NCBI GenBank assembly: GCA_032622095.1
Contig: CP136063.1
Location: 9,095,814-9,159,813 of the forward strand
DNA: 64,000 nucleotides
Origin: Siphonodentalium dalli
Taxonomy: Eukaryota; Mollusca; Scaphopoda; Gadilida; Siphonodentaliidae
Reading direction: 5' to 3'
The notes beneath the pieces were generated by a model. It made no database searches and had not been told where the DNA came from. It saw nothing but the letters and a program-made list of their open reading frames with translations. This document shows, one piece after another, positions 11,531 to 26,750 of the stretch. The translations under genes were made by a program, and so were the position numbers. Numbering within the stretch: the first letter of the stretch is position 1; each line of letters starts with the position of its first letter.

Positions 11531-13990
11531 CTCCTCCCTGGGAATTACACCAATTCGTTGATACTTACTAATTTATCAACAGCCATTATCAAAACCACAA
11601 CGTCTTGTTCGATTACTCTTTCACATGCCAATGCTATCTTCCTAGAGAGTATTGTACATATACCAATGTAGCTTCAGGTTGAAATGGGCAATCGAACACG
11701 GTTGTGTTTATACATGATTGTATCCATATATATTCAAATTATTTCCTCGGACTGTAAAATTTTTCAAATAATAATTTCAAATAATTACGTTGGACACAGT
11801 TACTGTTTACCACTAATGTTTACCAACTGATACCCTAAATGTGTATTAAAGATATATTATGGACTCTCTCGGGCGCATGAAACTGATAAGTTAGTGCCCA
11901 GGCGCTGTGCCAACTGGGGAATGTAGAAATATACTAACATCGCCGAAATCCTCATAGACAGCATCGCCTGAACAACGCGCAATTGTAAATATTTACATCT
12001 CAATTCGAGACTCAACAAACGGCGATAAACCAGCGCAAATGATTTCGTCATCAAGACTCATTGAATGTAATTGATATACAAGAATGACGATGTGTGATGT
12101 ATATTTGGATTTATATTCGTAAAAATAACTACTTTGAGCCAGAGTATTCTACATTTCTACTTCATCAACCAACCGGCGTGTTTCACAACACTTTAACTGA
12201 TGGTCATTTGAGTCCGAAACGTATTTGTAAAAAGTATGAAATTATTCGACTGTTTATATCTAGTAGTAATACATAATTACTAAATATTGGTTAGACAATG
12301 AAACTTTCCGATTAATTCGATTTCTGGTGGTCGAACATTTTCAAACTGTCGCTGTGACAAGCATATTCAAAAATGTTTATACAAATTCCCATGTCAATAC
12401 GTGCCTGACATAGCCAGCTATAGTACTCGACAACATACCACGTTTTATGAACATATTATGTATATATCAGATTGTGTATCACTCGCTCATATGAATGGCA
12501 AACTCTACACACTCGACAACAAAGGCAGTGCGCTTCTTCAGTTATAAAACATGTGCAAGTAATCAACATCTTCATTATGATAGAGCTCCGCGCGTTAAAT
12601 GGACATAACAGGCGAATTAGGGTTTAACCCCAAACTAATTGCAACACTAATGGCAAAGGTGCCATGTTATAGAGTAAGTCCGCTTATACAAGATAAATAA
12701 ATTTTAGAGAACAATATTTGGGACAAATAGCTAAATTTCTGTTTCCATGGCAACGAGGGATGATTTTAACTGATTGTGAAAACTGGGTGTTAAATTGCGT
12801 GTGTGGCTAGAATTATTTAAATTATCTCAAATATTATGTTGGTTTTTATGAACACTCATTGTTGCCTAACTTTTGAAACGATGTTCAACTTTTCAGAAAT
12901 TCAAGGTCATATGCAAAGGTCAAGCTCATTGCCAAACAAAATTGTTTTTTTCCGATGTTATAATATATCTTTGACCCACTTGATTGAAATTAAAGATGTG
13001 GAGAGACGATAATATATTTAAAATAATTTAGAAGACCGACGCTTTGTGCAGAATTATAGTTTTTACCAATAATATCAGCTCATTACTGAGATATGGACTC
13101 TCAAAGTTGCTGACACCCTTCCGTGATAAGTAAAATACTGCGGTATTTGACCAGACATGGCTACGGAACTCATTAATATTAACAATTATCCACATTTGCA
13201 ACCACATAGTTTTTCTGACTTTGATAGAACATAAAGCAGCGTGCTCAATACTGCTCATATTGAGCATTTGATTTAGTTTGAAGTTCCAAACCTTCCTCGT
13301 CATATGTATCACACATACTTATATCAACTGTCAGAAGATGTACTTAAAGCTGTCGGTATCTGAATGCAGAACGGTGTTGCTTTCATAAATACATATTATT
13401 TTGATACATTTTTACTATAGTTTTTGGAAGAAATCACGACAGATGGCTTCGCGTTGATACTTGAGAGTGTAAGTATTTATTTAAGTTTAATCATACATTA
13501 TGAACAGAGTTGCTAGCAGGTCCTAGTATCACATGGGGAACTATATGCCTTTGAAATGCATTAATGTATAGCAATACACATGCATGCAGTGTATACTTCT
13601 AGTATGACACATATATACAGTATACATATCGTGACGTAGACTAATGGTTGATGTCATCCGAAAAAATACCACTATTTTTACAAGTTACTGTCAAAACTTC
13701 CAGATTCATATCACCATATATATTGGTGATGTAATAATTACGTCGCCGACGTAATCACCACTAACTGAAATTGTTGAGAACTTAACCACAGCTCTACATT
13801 TGCAAGATAATTTACCTTTACATTTAATGCATATCGGATAAATGCAGATTGTGTTGTCTTCAAGTCGAATTATTATGCCGCACCGGTAATCAAGGTAAAT
13901 ACATATAATTAATATTGGGAGGGGCTTTATGGGGTACATTACGTTATTGTTGCATTTTTTGTGATTATTTGGAGCTCATATAGATGGCAA
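11531..13990. other. No gene recognised (holds one satellite-like locus)
   Basis: About 2.5 kb of AT-rich sequence. The only structure I can support is the single 67-bp-like unit at 12430-12560. Short open frames on both strands have no recognisable protein character. Confidence 0.5.
12430..12560 (+). repeat. Single diverged unit related to the 67-bp satellite
   Basis: Bases 12491-12555 begin ATGAATGGC, contain CTCGACAACAAAGG and end CAGTTATAAAACATGTGCA. This follows the 28718-33612 satellite (ATGAATGGCCACGTA...TTCGACAACAAAGGAGGTG...GAGTTGTAAA) in order and spacing. The left flank (CATACCACGTTTTATGAAC) also resembles CATATCACGTTTTATGAAT at 28299, upstream of the satellite, and the right flank resembles the satellite's exit. 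It may be an unamplified relative. Confidence 0.55.
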
Positions 13991-13994
13991 TGGT

Positions 13995-14540
13995 GACTGA
14001 TTTATTTTCTTTTGGTTAGAGAATGGGTGGGGCAAGTGCACTGGCCAGCGCATATGGGGGAGTGCTGCTCAAATTTTAAATTCGATATAGAGCCATTAGA
14101 GGACAGAGTGGTGACTGACTTAGTTTCTTTCGGTTAGAGAATATGTGGGGCAAGTGCACTGGCCAGTGTCTGGGGGGAGTGCTGTTCAAATTTTAAATAC
14201 CACGCAGAGAGCAGAGGCGACTGACTTATTTTCTTTCGGTTAGAGTACGGGTGGGGCAAGTGCACTGACTAGCGCCTCAGAATTTAAATCCATATAGAGG
14301 TCAGAGTGGTGACTAACTTATTTTCTTTCGGTTAGAGTATGGGTGGGGCAGGTTCACTGGCCAGCGCCTAGGGGGAGGAGTGCTGCTCAAATTTACATTC
14401 CATATAGAGGACAGAGTTGTGACTGACTTATTTTCTTTCGGTTAGAGAATGGGTGGGGCAAGGGCACTGGCCATCGCCTAGGGGGGGAGTGCTGCTCAAA
14501 TTTTAAATCCCATATAGAGGACAGAGTGGTGACTGAATAT
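13995..14540. repeat. ~105-bp tandem repeat, five copies
   Basis: Each unit has GACTTATTTTCTTTCGGTTA, then GGGTGGGGCAAGTGCACTGG, then GGGGGAGTGCTGCTCAAATT, then ATATAGAGG and CAGAGTGGTGA. Copies start near 13997, 14112, 14218, 14311 and 14414, with a partial sixth near 14530. The array lies just upstream of the first exon of the broken gene at 14657. Confidence 0.85.
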
Positions 14541-14656
14541 ATCGGTAATCAGAGAAATGCTAACAATGTCCAAGTTTAATTCAACGTGACTAGTGTTTGT
14601 TTACTCAATGTTATGAAAGACTAGATTATAATTAGCTCATATTCTTTTAATTTCAG

Positions 14657-14758
14657 GGGGAAAATATGGATGCGACAGGCGATGCTGCCAGTGTACACAC
14701 TGTTAAGCGTAAAAGGACAAGCACAAATGATTGTTTTTCTGCTGCCCAAGTAACACAG
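14657..14758 (+). CDS. Exon 1 of a broken gene of an uncharacterised repetitive family
   Basis: A polypyrimidine tract ending TTTAATTTCAG precedes 14657, so an untranslated exon may lie upstream. An ATG at 14666 opens 31 codons (MDATGDAASVHTVKRKRTST, then NDCFSAAQVTQ) ending at 14758 directly before a good donor, CAG|GTAGGT, in phase 0. The next acceptor in phase (TTTCGTTTCAG, ending 16846) leads into the Cys-rich segment at 16847. The short KRKR basic stretch could be a nuclear-localisation signal. The start is chosen because it is the only ATG between acceptor and donor. The downstream exon is disabled, so the locus as a whole is a pseudogene unless the breaks are assembly errors. Confidence 0.55.
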
Positions 14759-14907
14759 GTAGGTTTTTTTTTATAACATGCCAATCAGCCCTCGAACAAT
14801 GTATGTTATCCATTGAGGACCGGTGACCGACCTTTATTTACAATAAAGATCTTTTTGTCATCACATGTACTCTAAAGCGGTCATGTCCTGATTAAAATTG
14901 GCCGAAA

Positions 14908-15650
14908 GGTTGTATTCACGCCACACGTCTTGATTAAAGGTTGTATTCACGCCACACGTCTTGATTAAAGGTTGTATTCACGCCACACGTCTTGATTAAA
15001 GGTTGTATTCACGCCACACGTCTTGATTAAAGGTTGTATTCACGCCACACGTCTTGATTAAAGGTTGTATTCACGCCACACGTCTTGATTAAAGGTTGTA
15101 TTCACGCCACACGTCTTGATTAAAGGTTGTATTCACGCCACACGTCTTGATTAAAGGTTGTATTCACGCCACACGTCTTGATTAAAGGTTGTATTCACGC
15201 CACACGTCTTGATTAAAGGTTGTATTCACGCCACACGTCTTGATTAAAGGTTGTATTCACGCCACACGTCTTGATTAAAGGTTGTATTCACGCCACACGT
15301 CTTGATTAAAGGTTGTATTCACGCCACACGTCTTGATTAAAGGTTGTATTCACGCCACACGTCTTGATTAAAGGTTGTATTCACGCCACACGTCTTGATT
15401 AAAGGTTGTATTCACGCCACACGTCTTGATTAAAGGTTGTATTCACGCCACACGTCTTGATTAAAGGTTGTATTCACGCCACACGTCTTGATTAAAGGTT
15501 GTATTCACGCCACACGTCTTGATTAAAGGTTGTATTCACGCCACACGTCTTGATTAAAGGTTGTATTCACGCCACACGTCTTGATTAAAGGTTGTATTCA
15601 CGCCACACGTCTTGATTAAAGGTTGTATTCACGCCACGCGTCTTGATTGA
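14908..15650. repeat. 31-bp tandem repeat, 24 copies, inside an intron
   Basis: Units contain ATTAAAGGTTGTATTCACGC then CACACGTCTTG, repeated essentially without change for 743 bp. Only the last copy shows a substitution (CACGCGTCTTG). The array lies within the inferred intron 14759-16846, about 150 bp after the donor. Near identity implies recent expansion or homogenisation. Confidence 0.95.
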
Positions 15651-16846
15651 CCAATTGTGCACTCCCGATCATTCAATAAAAAGATTACTCAACCGGTGAG
15701 CGATACTGATATGGGCTGTGAAACCAAGTTAAATTCTTACAAAAAGCAAATGCAGGGACGTACAGTATAGCGACATGGAATGCTGGTAAAGATTGATGGA
15801 ATACAATTGGTTATAATCGGAAGAATTTGTAAATAAAAATTCGAAAAAATGTCAATCTTTTGACACTGTTTAGATAGATCAGACATGGGACAAATATGTC
15901 AGAGGGTTTCTGAAAAGTATGAGTTAAATTGGAATAATAATCCAAATATGGGGGGGGGGGGTGGGCATTCGGACGATAAAGACATTTCATGCATGAATGG
16001 GGCATGACCTAGTTCACAGTTGGGCATCAGATATTTCTGCGATACCCTGCAGCAACATTCCTGAACATTTGGTAGTTACCCCCACCCACAATACGAAAAT
16101 TAAATCACGACAGTCCGTTTTAAAGCGCAGGCAACGACTAAAATATATATAGGGTATATTCAGGTCTGTAACCGGGCCTCATTCGATAACTTTTGTTGAT
16201 CAAGAGCTGCTTGTGGTATTATAAATCCGACTTCGAATGCATAGAATAAATAAATCCGATAAGCAGGAATAGTGCACACAAGACATTTAGGCCAATAGTA
16301 ACAGAAAACTTCAGTTGGATCAGCCGCCGTTTGGTAATTTATATATGTTATTAGCTACATGTGAGTGGATTATTGCAAGTTTGATGGTAGAATCTGGACC
16401 ATGAATGTAACACATTTGACTTGATACTCCCTTGGTACAACCTTCTGCGTTTTCAGTCCGTTGACATCTTAAAAGCACTTTATTAGAGTATGTTGGTTAA
16501 CTAGCACAAAATGCAGATCAAATTCGAATTTGGGTTCCGCCCTCCAATTTTCACAAGAGTTATGGCCCATTTTGTTGGAATGTACACTAAATGTTCGTTT
16601 CCGGATGATAACTTTAGTAAGCGTAAACTGAAGGGAATTAAATTTGTTATGTGAGTATACTAGCTCAAAATACAGGTCAAGTTCGAATTTGGGTTTCGCC
16701 CGCCAATTTTCACAATATATCGCCCTTTGTTGGAATTACCACGGACGAAAAGTTTATCTTTGTAATCTGTAATTAATTTGTTTTCGGAGTAAGGTAATAC
16801 TTATGTCATTTCGCATCATTACCATTGTCGTACTCTTTCGTTTCAG
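15651..16846. other. Remainder of the inferred intron
   Basis: This is non-coding sequence between the 31-bp array and the acceptor at 16846. It includes two diverged ~165-bp copies (about 16498-16590 and 16665-16735) sharing CAAATTCGAATTTGGGTTCC-like and CCAATTTTCACAA segments, probably a dispersed repeat. No exon is seen. A G-run at 15951-15961 is low complexity. Confidence 0.5.
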
Positions 16847-17725
16847 GTCAAATTTGACAGGGTGCTCCGATGCGACTTTGCAAATTGTAATCTAAAGAAT
16901 GACTGTCTATTCTGCGGCAAGTCAATCACGACCAAACAAAGACGCGAGAAGGGTGTGTGTTTTCAGTTAGGATATTAAATTTCAAAGAAGAGATAACAAA
17001 ACATTGCGATAATAGGCGAGACCTGTGGTCAACACAAGTTCGGCACCGTCTATTGAGTATATCAGATCTTCTTCTGGCAGCTGACGCTTCATACCACCAG
17101 TTATGCAGTGTTAATTTCCGAACTGGAAAGAACACACCTCTTAAATTTCAAGATACAACTACAAAAGGACAGTCCAGCCAACCAGGTCGACAATTCGACA
17201 ATATCAGACATATAGCATACATCAAATTGTGCGAATGGATGAAAGCATCAAACAACGACACATACACTCTTAATGATTTGACTGTCAATATGCAGGAGAC
17301 ATTGCCAACTGGCGTAGAACCGTACTCTACAACCTATTTACAATTTAAACTTCACTCTTTCTTTGAAGACCAACTTATTGTAACCAAAAGAGAGGGACAC
17401 TCAAACATTATGACACTAACTAACAAAGCATCAACGATCATTCGGGATTTTCACCAAGATCGGGAATCAGTTGATAAAGAGATTCACGAAGCATGGATTG
17501 TGCGGAAAGCGGCTTTGTTGCTGAGAAATAAAATCCACGACCAACCAAACAATCTTAAAAAGTATCCAACGCCATCGGCTGTTGGATCTTTACTGGAAAA
17601 CACGGAATCTCTTCCGACATTGTTGCAGTGTTTTCTTGATACCATGATATCCGGATTTTCAATTGGTTTAGATATAAAGAGAGTTGCCGTTTGACAATCC
17701 TTGATGCAATTAACAAAACCTCTAG
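16847..17725 (+). pseudogene. Broken exon 2, N-terminal half, of an uncharacterised family
   Basis: The segment follows the acceptor TTTCGTTTCAG. The first 37 codons (to about 16957) hold four clustered cysteines (CDFANC, then CLFCGK), a likely zinc-binding element. A two-base excess in a GT run (16953-16960) shifts frame. The new frame runs 16957-17694 with the block AADASYHQLCSVNFRTGKNT, which I recognise from a widespread, unnamed repetitive protein family in invertebrates. TGA at 17692-17694 interrupts an otherwise continuous reading into QSLMQLTKP, where family members usually have GQ. A CT duplication lies beside a transposon inserted at 17726. Coding resumes at 20362. The function of this half is unknown. 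Confidence 0.75.
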
Positions 17726-20361
17726 GGGTGCTATTCACCAAGCGAGACTATTTTATAAACCAGGTAGTTTATATGGTAGCGGCTGAACGCAAAGGTATTT
17801 TAGCGCAAACGGCACACGCTGTCGATGGTGTGATTGATCCAATCTATCAGATTTGTCACCTGTCAATTGACGCCGTCTTACGACTAATTCATGAGCACTC
17901 ACCGGCCACAATCGGCATGTATAGCGGTATAATTTTTGGGTATAATTGTGTGGAGACTCATGCTTGCGTTTATATATCTGCAGAATGAGTTTCAATGATA
18001 TTAATGAGGTTTTTTAATTAGCACAGTGTGAAAATGAAGAGCCAAGAAGATAACGTCTCAGAAGAATTTTTTTCGTGTTTTGGTTCTGTTTGGATATTTC
18101 CCTGCTATTTCCAAAGAAATTTCTTTCCATACATCATTTTTCCGGCGCTGGTGAATGGTGCCGGTTTCTTTGTTCTTTATTATTTTGATTCTTCTCTCCA
18201 CAATGCCCAAAAAAGTGTTACGCTCGTCGGCAGTGGGGGGAGGGGGTCTGGAAAACAATTGCACATATAGGGCCCAAAAAGATTTTTTCAGACCCCGAGG
18301 GACCCACCACCCCATTTATGCAAATTTGTTCCTCCAAATGTTAGGGACCCACCCCCTTTCTCATGTTTTTATAAAAATTTCAGAGTTTTTTAGCCGTTCT
18401 TCAATAACTGTGTTAACTGCCTTTCAATCCCATTCCACTATCCTTTTTTGGTGCAAAGTGTGTAAAATTAAGACTCAAGCAATAACATCCTTAATCGGTA
18501 AAGCACAGGTCAGAAAAACGAAAAATAAACTGTATTTCCAGGTGTTTCCTGGTGTTTCCAGTATCTAACAATAATAATAAAGCATTGTGTAGGTACACTG
18601 TATGTCACAAATTGCCCTAGACCGCATTATAGCCTTAATATATAGAGCGTGTTTAGTCTGACAGAGAACACTGGCCAGTGTAAATAGTGGTAAACAGGTC
18701 AGGGGTTCTACAATTATTTGTGCATGATCAAAGAACTCTTTAGTCTTATCCACCGGGGTGGGTGAGGAGGGGAATTGTTTTGGTTATGTATACACATAGA
18801 TATATGGTTATTATACCCCCGATATTAGTCGACGGGTATATAGTTGACGTCTCGAGCCGTCCGTGCGTCCGTCCGTACAAACATTTTGCATCATAATTCA
18901 AGAGTCGATCGGTTGTCATATTTTGATGTTCTATGACATGTGACGGACCAGAAATGGGGAACGAATATGCATAATATCACGGTTTGTGAGTACCAATACC
19001 TACCAGAGTTATCCATGGGCCCTGTTTATGAAATTCAATCCGTACAAAGTTTTTGCCATATAAGTTGAAGTGTCGGTTGTCGAATTTTGAAGTGGTTTGG
19101 TATGGTGATAGACCTGAATGATACGCGAAGGATGTATGCAGATATTACTGCATATCACAGGTTTTGCCTGTCGATGCATACCAGAGCTACCAACTTGGTT
19201 CCATCCGTAAACACATTTTGCATTATTATAACTCAACCATTTGTATGTATATTTGTGCACTAGAGTCTGCAGTATAGTCTCAGTCAGATTTTATTCTTGA
19301 TTTTAGTTTGAACTTTGAAGACATTGAGGAATGTCATTTCTCAAAGTATCTGAATGCATCACATTATTTCAGTTCATCTATTTGTAAGCGATAACAGTAT
19401 ACAATTAGTATTGTAGTTTAGTCTTGTTGAGCAGTATTTAATTATATAAGCTTCAAGATGAAGTTCGTAAATTCAAGGAGAATAGCGTCACCTTCAGTTG
19501 GGATTGTCTGAACAATAAACAGTAACGGCCATTCATCATAACCAATTCAGTTTTATTTGGATAAGTGCTGCAAATTAACATTACTTGCAATCATTAAAAA
19601 GATGAGAAATAACCAGAAGGAATGAATTTGATTGCATGCCAGAACAAGACAGTATTTCAGACATTAGACATTTATGAGCTACCCTTTTCAATTTCATGTT
19701 ATGCAACAATCGGGTCAATGATATCTAGTCATCATTGAGTATTCACCATGTAGTATTTGTGATACAGTTTTTTTAATTTTATAACTATTATTCGGGTAAT
19801 ACAACTGGGTAATACATTAATTGTTTTACTAAATTACGGTTTTCCACTGAGAAGTGGGACGGGACCCTGTGAAATCCAGATTGTTGCTAAATCTTAGGCT
19901 AAATAGTCACTATAGCTGTCTATATAGCCATATGCCAACAAACATGATACTAACATGCTTACAGACAACATTACATGGTCTGTACTTGTAAATTGTTTGA
20001 AAAAAACCCATTTTGGAAAAAAAGATTACAAGCACGATTGTTTCGGCCTCTGGACCACCCACCCCGGCCCTATATACGGATTTTTTTTGTAGACCCCCTC
20101 ATGTCGTCGTTGGTATATTTTGCCCCACGTCCTTTTCCTCGGTTGCTCATTGTTGAAATGTGTACAAACGCGTACTGTTACACGCAGCATGTGTATGTGA
20201 CCGGTGGTCAATCTATGATTGACGCCAATCACCTTGATTGGATAATCCTGTATGGCTCGGCGATGTCTTCCCATCGATATGTCCACCGATAGCTTCGCAT
20301 TGAGCGTCGCCTCGTAAAACTACCTGGACTATATTATAAACCCAGCCGGTGAATAGCACCC
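17726..20361. mobile_element. 2.6-kb transposon inserted in the broken gene
   Basis: The ends are perfect 14-bp inverted repeats (GGGTGCTATTCACC at 17726-17739 and GGTGAATAGCACCC at 20348-20361) flanked by the 3-bp direct repeat TAG (17723-17725 and 20362-20364). The family reading of the host gene stops at one flank and resumes at the other, which independently fixes the boundaries. No transposase is recognisable inside, so it appears non-autonomous. A 3-bp duplication fits PIF/Harbinger-like integration, although TAG is not their usual target. The interior includes a dispersed repeat at 18825-19225. Confidence 0.75.
18825..19225. repeat. Dispersed repeat nested in the 2.6-kb element
   Basis: It begins GATATTAGTCGACGGGTATA and includes TAGTTGACGTCTCGAGCCG and CCGTGCGTCCGTCCGTAC. 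Two ~200-bp diverged sub-copies each have an ATTTTGCAT or TTTTTGCCATA segment followed by a TCGGTTGTC block. I recall similar blocks from bivalve genomes but cannot confirm this here. Confidence 0.4.
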
Positions 20362-23028
20362 TAGGGTTTTTGTCGCCAATAGTATTGGACTAGGCGTTCA
20401 GCTTCATCGAGATTATGGATCAAAGGATGTTAACTGAAGAACTCAATAAACTTGGCATGTGCGTGGCACGGGAAGAAGTTGTGAAGTATTTGCAAACATT
20501 GGTTTCAAACGAAAGCTTCAAACCTCAAATACTTGAAGGCCAGTTCGCGCAATGGGTGGCAGACAACGTCGATCATAATATTGTAACTATTGATGGACAC
20601 AACACGTTCCATGGAATGGGTATTATAATGTGTGCTTCTGGTCGTCCACAAAATTCCGTTGTGTCAAAAGATGTTATCATGAAACGGCTCAAAACAAGAA
20701 TTCCGAAAACGGAATTGTGTTCGCGCTCGAAGATTGATTTGAGTATTTTCAAATCCTCGCAAAAGACGAAACTAATGCAAGGATTAAAGTTCGAGAAAAT
20801 TGAATTCCCATCGATTAATCAAACCCCACTTGATGTGTTATGAACAGCGAGTAAACTGTTGAGCGAACCAAAGCCGAGTTGGAATGGCTTCATGCAAACT
20901 GTTTCTAAGGGAGACCATGTCGGCTTAGGTACTACCTCATTCCTGCCACTAATTGATCTGAATCCGACGTCACATACATGTGTTTATTCAACACTCATCT
21001 TCATCTGTAGGGAAGCACAACGACTTAATGTGGAGGTTCCAATAATAACATTCGATCAGTCATTGTGGATAAAAGCTATGGAAGTGATACATTCCAAGCC
21101 TGATGAGTTTCCAGATATTTTGATTCGACTCGGTGGTTTTCATACACTCATGTCATATTTGGGAACGATTGGTCATCTGATGGGCGGCACCGGTATAGAA
21201 GAAGCTATGCAGACCATATATGCTGAAAACACAATAGCACACATGTTAAGCGGTAAAGCTTACTCAAGATCACTTCGCTGCCACCTGATGATCTCGTCTG
21301 CGTTATCCGCTATGTTAATTGCTGATAGTTTGGAATATCGCATTCCACTTTCATTGGACAGTGCTACAGACGAGTCAGCTACATGCACACCAGATGGAAT
21401 TTCAAACATGGAACAAATGACTACTGGGTCCAATTCGGCCACTGCACTGCTGCAAGAAATCAATAATTTATTTGACGGGATGTTGAAAAGTGATGTTGAT
21501 GAAGAAAGTGCTGCTTCCTCAAAGCCGCTGCAATAAAGTATATCCGCCCTGGTATCAAAACTGGAAACACTGAGGACCCAGGACGGCGACAAAACCCAAA
21601 AATTATGGGCCATGTACATTCGAATGGTAGATATTGTGAAACAATTCATCCGAGCTGAACGAACTGGTAATCTGGAACTTCATCTGCAGGCATTTGAACA
21701 TATGCTCCCATTCTTTGCTAGTTCTTGCCATAACAATTATGCCAAATGTGGACGATTGTATTTACAACAGATGAGAGCGTTGTGTAAGACATACCCAAAT
21801 GTATATAGCACGTTGGCCGATGGTCACTTCACTATCAGAAGACACGACAGGAAATGGGCAGGTATTTGGCCAGACATGCATATCGAACAGTCAGTGATGC
21901 GATCCATTAAGAGCAGGGGTGGACTGACGCGGGTGGTGGAATGGCTGATGGACAGAGAGCCTTGTGGATTAGCACACATCAAGCAGCATGCTCCATGATA
22001 TCAGCGATGTCTCAACTGACATTACTTGCACGTGTTGGGGGAGAACAACATGTCGATCTGGGCGATTCTAGGATCAAAATGGACGGAAATAATTTCAAGA
22101 AAGTGTTCCACTACTTCATTGACCACAATCCATTCGACACCCAATGTCCCAAATTGATGAATATATATAACGGGTTTACAGATAGCGACAACAATGTGAA
22201 TGTATACAACTCTGAGGCAATTGGGCAGGAAATTCATGACAAAAATGACTGGTGAATCATTCAATGACGTGAAGATGACTAAACGTCAACAAGCGGTGAC
22301 AATGAATAGTTTACGTAAAGGTATTGTGATCAATGGGGAATGTAGGAAAGTCGACACACGCCTTCTGACAAAAAGAATGGTTGTTGCGCTCTCTGTTGAG
22401 AGAGACTCTCCTGATCTGGCCGATAATATGACATACGAACTTTCAGCTGTTCCCACATCCATTTTTGAACCTGGTACGGAAACTATGCGGAAATGTGATA
22501 AGGCATCCCTTGCCAGATGCCTCGATTCAAAAGTAACGGCAGTGGACAACAACCCCCCAACACATTTAAACAATGTACATTACGTGTTAGATGGAGGTGC
22601 CCTCTTGCAAATAGTTTATTGGCAAAAGGATACAACCATCCAGGATATAATTCAAGGATATGTTGACTATGTAAAAAGATATTACGGATGCTGCTCTATC
22701 GTATTTGACGGATATGCTATGTCCACAAATGATTGTGAAATGGAACGGCGCAATGGGAAGTCATCTGTGACAAGCAACTTTCATGAACGTTCACCAGTCA
22801 TCATTAATTAGTCAACATTTCTGTCAAATACACCCAATAAACAAACGATTTGTATATATGCTGGGACAGCAGCTACAGAAATGTGGCCACAGAGTTGAAC
22901 ATGCAGAAGCAGATGCAGACACACTGATCGCACTCACCTTAGCTGAAGACAGACCGGTGGTTGTTGTGGCCGATGACACAGATGTCATGGTTATGCTCAT
23001 CAAACATTCAATTGATGGTAGATTATAA
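20362..23028 (+). pseudogene. Broken exon 2, C-terminal half, with PIN/FEN-like nuclease motifs
   Basis: After the transposon the reading resumes with IGLGVQLHRDYGSK. An extra G near 20426 shifts it into QWVADNVDHN and FHGMGII (20550-20640). TGA (20841) interrupts before PSWNGFMQ, and TAA (21534) follows the RLGGFHTLMSYLGTIGHLMG block. The frame then runs on through RAERTGNLELHLQAFEHMLP. A missing G near 21932 and an extra A in the A-run at 22241-22245 move between frames carrying EQHVDLGDSRIK and KRQQAVTMNS. TAG is at 22809 and an extra A near 22843. The end has VFDG with ERR downstream (about 22700-22750), EADAD (22900-22922) and ADDTD (about 22969-22983). These match the order of acidic motifs in XPG/FEN PIN-type nucleases. 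The usual C-terminal helix-hairpin-helix part is absent after 23028. Confidence 0.75.
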
Positions 23029-23166
23029 TTTAAAAATAAGTTAACAAATTATGAAAATTTCCTCAAGATATATATAGAAGATTATACTGATAGTATAGTA
23101 TAATGATAGTTTGAATGCGATGTTATCCACAAACCACTTTGCGTAAGCCGAGCGTTTGTTTATATA

Positions 23167-23306
23167 CAGAAAGTAAAGAGTGTGCGATAAGCAAAGCACT
23201 CAAAGCCGTGGTGATGTTTTATGGAGAGTGAGCCATGATCAAAGTCCAATTAGTGTGGTCTCCCCGGTGATGACTGTTTTGCTTATCGCACACCCTTTAC
23301 GTACTG
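23167..23306. mobile_element. 140-bp Tc1/mariner-like miniature element
   Basis: The termini are near-perfect inverted repeats: the left runs CAGAAAGTAAAGAGTGTGCG then ATAAGCAAA, and the right is its complement with CAGTACGTAAAGGGTGTGCG. TA lies at 23165-23166 and 23307-23308, as expected for a TA target duplication. There is no coding capacity. It lies just downstream of the broken gene and may have helped truncate it. Confidence 0.75.
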
Positions 23307-23308
23307 TA

Positions 23309-23818
23309 CTCAGTGTAACATAATTTGGATTTTGTTTACTAATGCAGCATACGATCTTGAAAATAACATGATATTTACGCGATTTATTTATGATTGCTAT
23401 AAGAACAAGATCTGTCTATATTTTAACATTCTTTCTGTTTATGGTGGTTTTAACGGATGTAACTATTTTAACAGCAATACCCGTCGCGAAGGCCATCCGT
23501 ACCTTTTAGTTCATTTAATTAACCATAAGATGGAGCTTTCCATTGCGGGCGAATGTTGGAAAGTCAGAAATAAGATTTGTTATTCCATTATACAGTACTT
23601 TTTAACCACATCAGTCGAAAATATCTTGGTTAAACGATAATTTTGTTTAATTACTTTGACATTTGAGTGAGACCTTGGCCTTGTAATTAGTGTGACATTG
23701 ACCTTCAAATGGCCCACAACATATGTGGTCATGTGGACCTATATTGGTTCTTTCATAACCCAGTGCTAATGAAATAGTTGTTCAATTGTTTACTGTAAGA
23801 AGAATTTAATATAAAATC
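23309..23818. other. No gene recognised
   Basis: AT-rich sequence between the miniature element and the 588-bp repeat. A 102-codon plus-strand open frame (23332-23640) has no recognised domain and no splice or start context that stands out. Confidence 0.45.
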
Positions 23819-25035
23819 TCCAAATAACCCATCATTAGCCATCGTTGCCATGGGAACTGAAATTTATCAAATTTGTCCGAATTGGATTTTCCTAAATAAA
23901 AGATATTCTAACGCAGTATACATTCAACTACCAGTGTACCAAAATATTAACTGACATTTTGCATATAACAAGTTATGTTGCGATTTATTGTTTCTACAAT
24001 CGACTATAAATATCACAATTTATGTCTCGTTGTACAGAAAATTGTTGTCGGTACATATTTCAAACTGCTATAGTTTCTAAAGCAGCTATCGATATCCATT
24101 CAAATTGACCTTCCCGTGGATCCTGAATTCCGAAGTTTATAAAGTATTGTTGGTGAACGCTATTGGTCATAGATCATAACTAGGTTGGTCGAAAATATGA
24201 CTTCTGAAGGATAAAAATCCTGATTTTTAACAATGACCTTGACCTTTATATGTGACCTTGACATTTCAAGGTTACCGTGGATATGTGGAAATGTCGGCCA
24301 ATATAAATGTTTCCATAAACCAATGTAAAGTTTTAGGTAGTTCAATTATTCACGATAGGCACAATTTAAAATGTAAATTCCAAATATCTGATTATTAGCC
24401 ATCGTTGCCATGGAAACTCAAATTTATCAAATTTGACCCAATGGGATTTTCCTAAATAAAAGATATTTTAACGCAGTATACATTCAACTAACAGTGTACC
24501 AAACGACGTCTGTGTTGCAACCAGTTCATATTAACTGACATTTTGCATATAACAAGTTATGTTGCGATTTTTTGTTTCTACAATCGACTATATAAATATC
24601 ACAATTTATGTATCGTTGTACATAAAATTGTTGTCGGTACATATTTCAAACTGCTGTAGTTTCTAAAGCAGATATCGATATCCATTCAAATTGACCTTCC
24701 CGTGAAGTCTGAATTCCGAAGTTTATAAAATATTGTTGGTGATCGCTATTGGATATAGATTATAACCAGGTTGGTCGAAAATATGACTGCTAAAGGATAA
24801 AAATCTTGATTTTTAACAATGACCTTGACCTTTATAAGTGACCTTGACATTTCAAGGTCACCTTGGATATGTGGAAATGTCGGCCAATATAAGTGTTTCC
24901 ATAAACCAATGTAAAGTTTTAGGTAGTTGTTCAATTATTCACGATACGCACACTTTAGTATTAAATTCCAAATATCTGATTATTAGCCATCGTTGCCACG
25001 GAAACACAAATTTTTCAAATTTGTCCCAATAGGCG
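23819..25035. repeat. Tandem duplication of a ~588-bp unit plus a partial third copy
   Basis: Units start near 23819, 24377 and 24965 with the shared block ATTAGCCATCGTTGCCATGG, followed by ATTTATCAAATTTG and CAGTATACATTCAACTA. Each full copy later carries TGACCTTGACATTTCAAGGT. Copy 2 has about 27 extra bases (CGACGTCTGTGTTGCAACCA and on) relative to copy 1. The third copy stops at about 25035. The matching minus-strand open frames of 61-62 codons in the two units are repeat-derived. Confidence 0.85.
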
Positions 25036-25056
25036 TGTATTACAAAATTTATATAT

Positions 25057-25215
25057 GCAATCAACGTCGTTTTCGATGCATCTGTCGGCGTATAGAAGTG
25101 TCGGATGCCGAATTACATACTGTATAATTTCGCGAAGCGAAATTATACAAAGTATGTAGTTCGGCATCCGACACTTCTATACGCCGACAGATGCATCGAA
25201 AACGACGTTGATTGC
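25057..25215. repeat. 159-bp near-perfect palindrome
   Basis: The left arm 25057-25133 begins GCAATCAACGTCGTTTTCGA and its complement ends at 25215. The arms match over about 77 bp with one substitution and a 2-base indel, around a 3-base centre (GAA). The flanks are AT-rich. The structure would fold into a long hairpin and resembles a foldback-type miniature transposon. There is no clear target duplication. Confidence 0.9.
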
Positions 25216-26750
25216 TTATAATTACGACAATCCGCATATTAGTTGGTGATTAAACAAGTTCTTTTTAAAGAAACTATATTAAAAACACTAAAATGGTAAA
25301 ACTACCCAAGTGATATTTGTGTCTGGACTTAGCTGCTCTTTCAACCGAAATGAGAATTTGGGTCGAGAATAAATTGGGCGACCGACCGGATGTTCGAGAT
25401 GAACACACACAATTCGATCGCTGTTTCCGATATTCCAACTACACAAAAGCAAGAGACAACACCCGTAAACTATTAAACTGTACTTGCTGGTGTAAATTTC
25501 ACTTATTTTAAACGATTCTAGAACATGTATTGTCATAAAGGCAATCCGATTCGATAGCAATTCCGAAGCGGTGTTCCCAAACTTCGCCACTGAATTTGTG
25601 GTCTTCGGCGACTCGAAAAGTAAACAATCGCTACAAAGGTGCATTCTATGCTCTCATGACCACTGCCATGTCATATTAGTATTGGCACGAAGCTGGATAA
25701 ATGCTAATATTAATGGTGGAATAGTTATGTAATACATTCTTTTATCCCCAAATAAATTAATGTACTATTTTGCTGTTTAATCGGCGATCATTTTTCGCTG
25801 AGATTTGGCGTCTTGTGTTACCACTAGAAACGGAAGTGATTTCTTGCGATTTGATTGGTGGACAAAATAAAATTCCGGGTAAATTCGCCCAATGGATATT
25901 CGACTTGGTTTGCGAACTTTTTAAGGTATCACTACCCCCAGTGATGCGGGAAACGACACTTCCCTCCACTGATAGATATTGTCGCTACCAAGCGTATCTA
26001 AGGGCCTTGACCAATCAAATGCACGCATTTTAGTCAAATCGAAAGTAGTTGTAATTATATTCTAATGCAGTACATATTCAGCTGTCCAGTAAACCAAAAG
26101 GCATTAGTGTTGCAATTAGTTTTGGGTTGACCCCATTTTTCGGCTAGATCGCCTGTACTAATATTGACATCATTAGTAAGTTACAGCTAATTCTCCCAGA
26201 AAAACCGATTTTCTGCAGGTAAGTTAGTATACAAGTAAACATTTATACAGGTAAGTTAATATATAAGTGAACAGTTATCAGTGTCAAATGTGTCCAGAGT
26301 TCAAATAAAACATGAGGCCTGGCGTGTTCATGGTTACCACCCCCTGCTACAACAACATGTGACATCACCAATGGTTTTGTAGCCCTACATTAATATTTGA
26401 ATTTGACTCAAAATCGAACCTGTTATATATCAAGCGTTATCGTCGCGATGGATGTAGGGTATGTCGGTCATGACATGGCGTGTATTACCATTAGCGGGGT
26501 TCGCGCCGCCAGTTGCCCGCGCGAACCCTGACAAGTATCATGTGTCGATGGTTACAATGAGTGTCCTTCTTAATCGTTGGCAAGGTGTATATTAAATGTG
26601 TATACAATTAGCATGTGTCGATGGTTAAAGCTGTAAAATTTGTACGACCTTCCAATTATCTGACATATATTAATAATTATTTCAAATGCCCATATAGCAT
26701 ATTTATATGCCTTTAGTATAGAGATTGACGGAGGCAAGCCAGCAGGCACC
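25216..26750. other. No gene recognised
   Basis: Low-copy AT-rich sequence. Open frames of 60-118 codons exist on both strands (25288-25644 minus, 25770-26033 plus) without recognisable motifs. A short GC-rich inverted repeat (GGGTTCGCG at about 26497 and CGCGAACCC near 26528) could form a hairpin. A possible inverted pair (GATTTGATTGGTG near 25847 and GACCAATCAAATG near 26010) hints at another small element. Confidence 0.4.

Follow-up and report, generated by a model that had tools for sequence, protein, structure and literature searches.

In the window, by which we mean the whole stretch of 64,000 nucleotides analysed (Siphonodentalium dalli, contig CP136063.1, positions 9,095,814 to 9,159,813), we identified a degraded transposon copy on the + strand. 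Its extent follows from alignment with its closest relative, a sister copy on C4, which comprises pieces over 12608-25054 and 26053-26160 together with the inverted ends at 12620-12652 and 26102-26134. The features, in window coordinates, are:

12605-12607: left target-site duplication, ATA; probable, read from the sequence, the adjoining terminal bases being lost
12608-26160, +: the whole transposon copy, 13.5 kb
12608: left terminus, starting ACAGGCGAATTAGG; TAGT, the outermost four bases, is lost here and kept in the C4 sister
14666-14758, +: likely first exon of the coding sequence (MDATGDAA...), with GT after it; splice site identified by visual inspection
14905-15648: 31-bp minisatellite, 24 copies, inside a presumed intron of the transposon
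16847-17720, +: N-terminal part with a Cys/His cluster (CDFANC, CLFC ... YHQLC), preceded by AG; frame broken
16871-16888, +: CDFANC
16904-16921, +: CLFCGK
17077-17136, +: AADASYHQLCSVNFRTGKNT
17727-20360: unrelated high-copy repeat, 2.6 kb, a later insertion within the transposon
20394-21995, +: DDE-type transposase core, from motifs and a DUF6589 match with E = 0.0069 (below the cut-off); frame broken
20550-20579, +: QWVADNVDHN (ADNVDHN at 20559-20579)
21045-21062, +: ITFDQS
21126-21185, +: RLGGFHTLMSYLGTIGHLMG (RLGGFH at 21126-21143)
21654-21671, +: AERTGN
21911-22583, +: linker from transposase core to nuclease domain; frame broken
22043-22078, +: EQHVDLGDSRIK, in the linker
22584-23011, +: truncated FEN/XPG-like domain (VLDGG, VFDG with CEMERR, EADAD, ADDTD)
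22701-22712, +: VFDG
22734-22751, +: CEMERR
22906-22920, +: EADAD
22969-22983, +: ADDTD
23011/23012: junction at which the window copy lacks ~2.5 kb that the C4 copy has
25055-26052: second foreign insertion, ~1.0 kb, with no counterpart in the C4 copy
26152-26160: right terminus, ...CCTGTACTA, complete, with ATA directly after
26161-26163: right target-site duplication, ATA, read from the sequence

The coding motifs of the window copy are spread over several frames, with stops and frameshifts between them. A preliminary description had placed a broken gene at 14657-23028, and all the motifs that it named there are present, on the + strand and in several broken frames; the feature is thus real, but its coordinates were too narrow, since the element covers 12608-26160 and includes the unrelated repeat. 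The long conserved blocks listed in that description are likewise present, but the middle ones (ADNVDHN, TFDQ, RLGGFH and ERTG) belong to a transposase core that it had missed.

The inverted ends of the window element read TAGTACAGG..., and a search of the window with the terminal-inverted-repeat words of other families gave no match above chance. The coding pieces are 96.5-96.8% identical to those of the C4 copy, and over the final 108 bases the two sequences do not differ at all. The N-terminal Cys/His block is also found in the C4 copy (L005). The ~2.5 kb lost at 23011/23012 includes the end of the nuclease domain, whose GCDTTS...GKG segment is present in the C4 copy and missing from the window copy, and the C-terminal Cys cluster. 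The repeat at 17727-20360 has 13-bp perfect inverted ends (GGTGCTATTCACC) with CTAGG at both sides, and its 173-bp edge has 44 matches in the genome, including itself (1093 candidates, 40 scored). The start of the second insertion is overlapped by a near-perfect palindrome of ~170 bp at 25052-25220. Because the C4 sister has only a single variant unit where the window copy has 24, the 31-bp minisatellite probably expanded after the two copies separated. With its frames broken, two foreign insertions and part of the nuclease domain lost, the window copy is dead.

We searched the window's own genome (2.23 Gb, 9 contigs) with a 230-aa middle piece of the protein (window 20844-21533). Of 1762 first-look candidates, 150 were scored as matches, including the piece itself, all with E <= 3e-39, so the family resemblance is beyond chance and the locus is, as first described, one broken member of a family with many copies. 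Two young families with recent copies are among the matches: L008 and L009 are 99.97% identical over 5.85 kb, with a stop-free frame of 1575 aa, and L006 and L007 are 99.8% identical over 7.1 kb, with a stop-free frame of 1286 aa and separate upstream 5' frames that contain Cys motifs. Other long stop-free frames (all lengths being from stop to stop) occur in L010 (1494 aa), L035 (1532 aa) and L036 (1510 aa). The domain order in intact relatives is an N-terminal Cys/His cluster, a DUF6589-related core, a FEN/XPG-like domain and a C-terminal Cys cluster; the N-terminal Cys motif reported earlier corresponds to a cluster found in the window copy and in its intact relatives alike. In 12 further loci (L035-L046), picked from the matches of the 230-aa piece, most of them for their long frames, and fetched at 5.5 kb each, the motifs VFDG, DAD and DTD are present in 10, of which 9 also have GCDT, and the nuclease motifs are absent from the 5.5 kb of the other two (L043 and L044). 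L004, a fragment that runs into other sequence, does not contain the VFDG, DAD and DTD motifs. As an observation apart, L004 (C7:204217180) has its Academ-type core in frame with this other sequence, which is SGNH-hydrolase-like by eye, giving a chimeric frame of 678 aa.

Pfam scans gave, besides DUF6589, only sub-threshold matches for the window pieces, and, besides DUF6589 and the helicase models in L052, only sub-threshold matches for the intact frames; across both sets these included LacAB_rpiB, DUF3545, DUF1441, Cobalamin_bind and SurA_N_2. PDB searches with the whole of L008 and with profiles of the nuclease and of the core returned nothing relevant, and tblastn of viral and prokaryotic contigs confirmed no relative. 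Nearly identical segments lie 1.9 Mb apart at C4:151.38 Mb and C4:153.28 Mb, one of them running rightward into a 100-base run of N; since they have their left flank in common, the paired C4 copies are one insertion that was recently duplicated, or an assembly duplicate.

The preliminary description had recommended inspecting the flanks of copies for terminal repeats and target duplications, and both were found. Both ends were examined in 14 copies (8 of the L006 family, 5 of the L009 family and the C4 sister), and 12 of these have an exact 3-bp target-site duplication (TSD). The elements terminate in 5'-TAG in both families. In the L006 family (ends TAGTACAAG...), for which we took all 8 left ends found, each with its right end, exact duplications are present in 7 of 8 copies (TAT, AAT, TAT, CAT, ACA, TAA and CAG), and copy E has GTT/TTT and no exact duplication. 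In the L009 family (ends TAGTCTGG...), represented by 5 of 40 scored copies from 570 candidates, they are present in 4 of 5 (TAG, TTA, TAG and ATG), L009 itself having an exact duplication only if its left end is taken two bases longer. The C4 sister has TTT/TTT. The count leaves out L008 (3' end missing), C3:69346619 (an L006-family right end without a left end), the second C4 copy, so that the C4 pair is counted once, and L010, a single copy with no exact duplication under either reading of its end.

The C-terminal part of the protein had been suggested to be a PIN/FEN-like nuclease, from motifs that mark the catalytic acids in XPG/FEN nucleases. An alignment of 12 copies, representing 7 families less than 65% identical, contains the motifs V.DGG, VFDGY with a basic stretch ending in RR, DAD, DTD and GCD(T/S)TS..GxGK. 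In the intact relatives, seven acidic positions stand in the order known from FEN nucleases and are accompanied by the G(C/S/T)D...GxG segment of FEN/XPG proteins; the window copy is without this last segment. The acids are conserved, the first aspartate being kept in 10 of the 10 rows that cover it and the next five acids (VFD-, D-x-D, D-x-D) in 12 of 12, including one row with VSDG instead of VFDG in which the aspartate is kept. The GCD aspartate is also present in 12 of 12 rows, which is uninformative, since the rows were picked for GCD(T/S)TS and the constancy of this motif is by selection of rows. The corresponding order in FEN1/EXO1, taken from sequences of PDB matches and from human FEN1, is AIDA, VFDG..R, EAEA or EADA, D.D and G.DY..GIG. 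The likeness to FEN1, EXO1 and XPG extends to the first D, VFDG with its basic stretch, the acid pair, D-x-D, and GCD with GxGK, whereas the first acid pair is D-x-D in the transposon family vs. E-x-E in FEN1 or E-x-D in EXO1, no full-length sequence match exists, and the transposon domain is fused to a transposase.

When hhalign was run on all 12 rows against six FEN1/EXO1 sequences, P was 0.0019 and the probability 14.6%; nine rows that include the distant L049 yielded a score of 37.6, P = 2.4e-4 and a probability of 43.3%. The score of 37.6 exceeds those of all 100 column shuffles (best 25.1), and the reversed alignment and the transposase core scored 19.9 and 17.7, respectively. The FEN alignment is collinear from the first aspartate through the GCDTTS..GxGK / GTDYNP..GIGxK segment. 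The order of the acids and a FEN1/EXO1 profile match above every shuffle thus argue for the suggested nuclease type; the domain would be a divergent FEN relative at best, because sequence searches with the intact frames and the nuclease profile matched neither a Pfam XPG model nor a PDB chain. In the FEN region, synonymous differences are saturated (pS 0.75-0.86) vs. pN of 0.24-0.47 in all 8 pairs computed, which share members; low pN beside saturated pS points to a nuclease domain maintained by selection.

The transposase core has invariant ADNVDHN, TFDQPLW, RLGG.H and AERTG blocks in 11 copies; these rows were picked for ADN(V/L)DHN and ERTG(N/D), and the constancy of TFDQPLW and RLGG.H is free of that selection. 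The catalytic residues of the core are putative. A match to Pfam DUF6589 at E <= 1 is found in only 2 of 8 members of the close family; the best score in this family is that of the C4 copy (E = 8.3e-5, 21.9 bits, under the cut-off of 27). L049 and L050, two copies of one family that is homologous to L008 (BLASTP, 2e-30), match DUF6589 at 29.4 bits, above the cut-off; this family has the FEN motifs and, in L050, the C-terminal Cys cluster, and it bridges to the close family, whose order of parts it shares. The core profile compared with four DUF6589 copies scored 25.4, against 24.6 for the best of 60 shuffles, with an hhalign probability of 1.1%, which is marginal. The name DUF6589 was not found in the literature searched, and the equation of DUF6589 with the Academ transposase is made here, not taken from any paper; this unnamed Pfam domain is thereby tentatively tied to Academ-type transposases.

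A genome search with DUF6589 gave 91 matches (197 candidates, 102 scored). From four near-identical DUF6589 matches listed, we examined two helicase elements, L053+L055 (C4:228.80 Mb) and L054+L056 (C6:169.53 Mb). Their inverted ends are CAGTCTGAGT...ACTCAGACTG, and both are flanked by 9-bp TSDs, GGTGACATG and TATATTTGT. L053+L055 is 14.2 kb long and matches DUF6589 at 51.6 bits; its opposite-strand frames match Helicase_C (1.8e-16), RecQ_Zn_bind (4.4e-6) and DEAD (6e-6), all over cut-off. AcademH elements are described in the accessible text of PMC10045372 as encoding a helicase and having 9- or 10-bp TSDs. Since helicase and 9-bp duplication match this description, the elements that combine DUF6589 with a RecQ-like helicase have AcademH traits. 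The window family is like AcademH in its apparently related DUF6589-type transposase and, by eye, its N-terminal Cys motif, but AcademH was rejected for it: it has a nuclease-like domain and 3-bp TSDs vs. a helicase and 9-10 bp, and elements of the latter kind are separate in the same genome. The co-occurrence of recent nuclease-lineage and helicase-lineage copies in one genome is useful for asking why their TSDs differ.

The nuclease of AcademX belongs to the XPG type. AcademX elements, according to the accessible text of PMC10045372, encode a nuclease and have TSDs of 3 or 4 bp, and the difference in TSD length seems to be related to whether a helicase or a nuclease is encoded. Our main reading, to which we give a probability of about 0.83, is that we see here the decayed remains of a cut-and-paste DNA transposon belonging to AcademX, a lineage of the Academ superfamily, with a FEN-like domain in the protein of its intact relatives. 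The lineage is assigned because nuclease and 3-bp TSD fit its published traits: the TSD is 3 bp long, that of the window copy reading ATA/ATA beside a left end shortened by four bases, and motif order, conservation and profile comparison of the FEN-like domain suggest an encoded nuclease. Terminal inverted repeats and a TSD, as expected for the Academ superfamily, are present. The likeness to AcademX, that is, a nuclease with a DDD/E transposase, a 3-bp TSD and terminal inverted repeats, is one of description only, and membership in Academ is likewise assigned by published traits and the DUF6589 bridge, compared by description and not by a reference protein. The C-terminal Cys cluster of the relatives is not mentioned for AcademX in the accessible part of PMC10045372. 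Our literature search for XPG or flap endonuclease domains with transposons found nothing on the question. The preliminary description of an unclassified mobile element was right as to mobility, given the inverted ends and TSDs, and is superseded as to class, since the traits fit AcademX; what was an unknown repetitive nuclease gene becomes an annotated transposon with ends, TSD and domain order. The feature is thus already known in kind, an ordinary dead member of a known transposon type.

Kolobok elements duplicate the target TTAA, and Kolobok was rejected, the TSDs found here being 3 bp long and of varied sequence, not TTAA. Kolobok lineages with accessory nucleases likewise join a DDD/E transposase to a nuclease, but these nucleases have other folds (lambda exonuclease-like, DEDDh and His-Me finger), according to the accessible text of PMC9587614. 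A separate, undescribed superfamily of DNA transposons, combining a DDE transposase with a FEN-like nuclease and only distantly akin to Academ, would account for the position of the close family under the Pfam DUF6589 cut-off and for the marginal profile match of the core with helicase-type DUF6589 copies, and Academ was compared by description only; we nevertheless consider it very unlikely, since the L049/L050 family bridges the gap with the same part order and a score over the cut-off, 3-bp TSD and nuclease are published AcademX traits (PMC10045372, accessible text), and elements with AcademH traits occur in the same genome. Bivalves, moreover, are rich in Academ, which has expanded in them; the 100 curated elements average 5565 bp in length (PMC10294476, accessible text), close to the size of a 5.9 kb family in this genome.

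Doubt about the nuclease itself takes the form of another PIN-like fold (e.g., an NYN/PIN-class RNase), or something else that is not of FEN type, at the C-terminus, as might be suspected from hhalign probabilities of at most 43% and from the missing sequence matches to XPG/FEN models or PDB chains. The collinear FEN alignment, which extends to the GCDTTS..GxGK / GTDYNP..GIGxK segment and scores above all shuffles, makes this improbable; other PIN classes are not known to have a final segment of this type. A host gene family or defence system turned repetitive, the latter having been proposed in the preliminary description, would fit a protein that is large, conserved and built of several domains, one of them nuclease-like, but we give it almost no weight, the ends and duplications of the families examined being those of a transposon: the ends are inverted, the TSDs lie at sites unrelated to each other, and different contigs carry near-identical copies.

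Under the preferred assignment to AcademX, the intact relatives would encode one large protein with a Cys/His cluster, a DUF6589-related DDE core, a FEN/XPG-like domain and a C-terminal Cys cluster. Binding to the inverted ends is probably the role of the N-terminal Cys/His cluster. The DDE core would cut these ends and join them to the target with a stagger of 3 bp, and trimming of flapped or branched ends, either during excision or once the element has inserted, may fall to the FEN-like domain. That the FEN-like domain acts in transposition itself and, replacing the helicase of AcademH, sets the TSD to 3 and not 9 bp is a tentative and rather doubtful suggestion; if it is true, one genome hosts both reaction types side by side.

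Outside the element, window positions 27284-59820 contain many long minisatellites of up to 4.9 kb, with units of 39, 67, 48, 50, 101, 40 and 85 bp among others.
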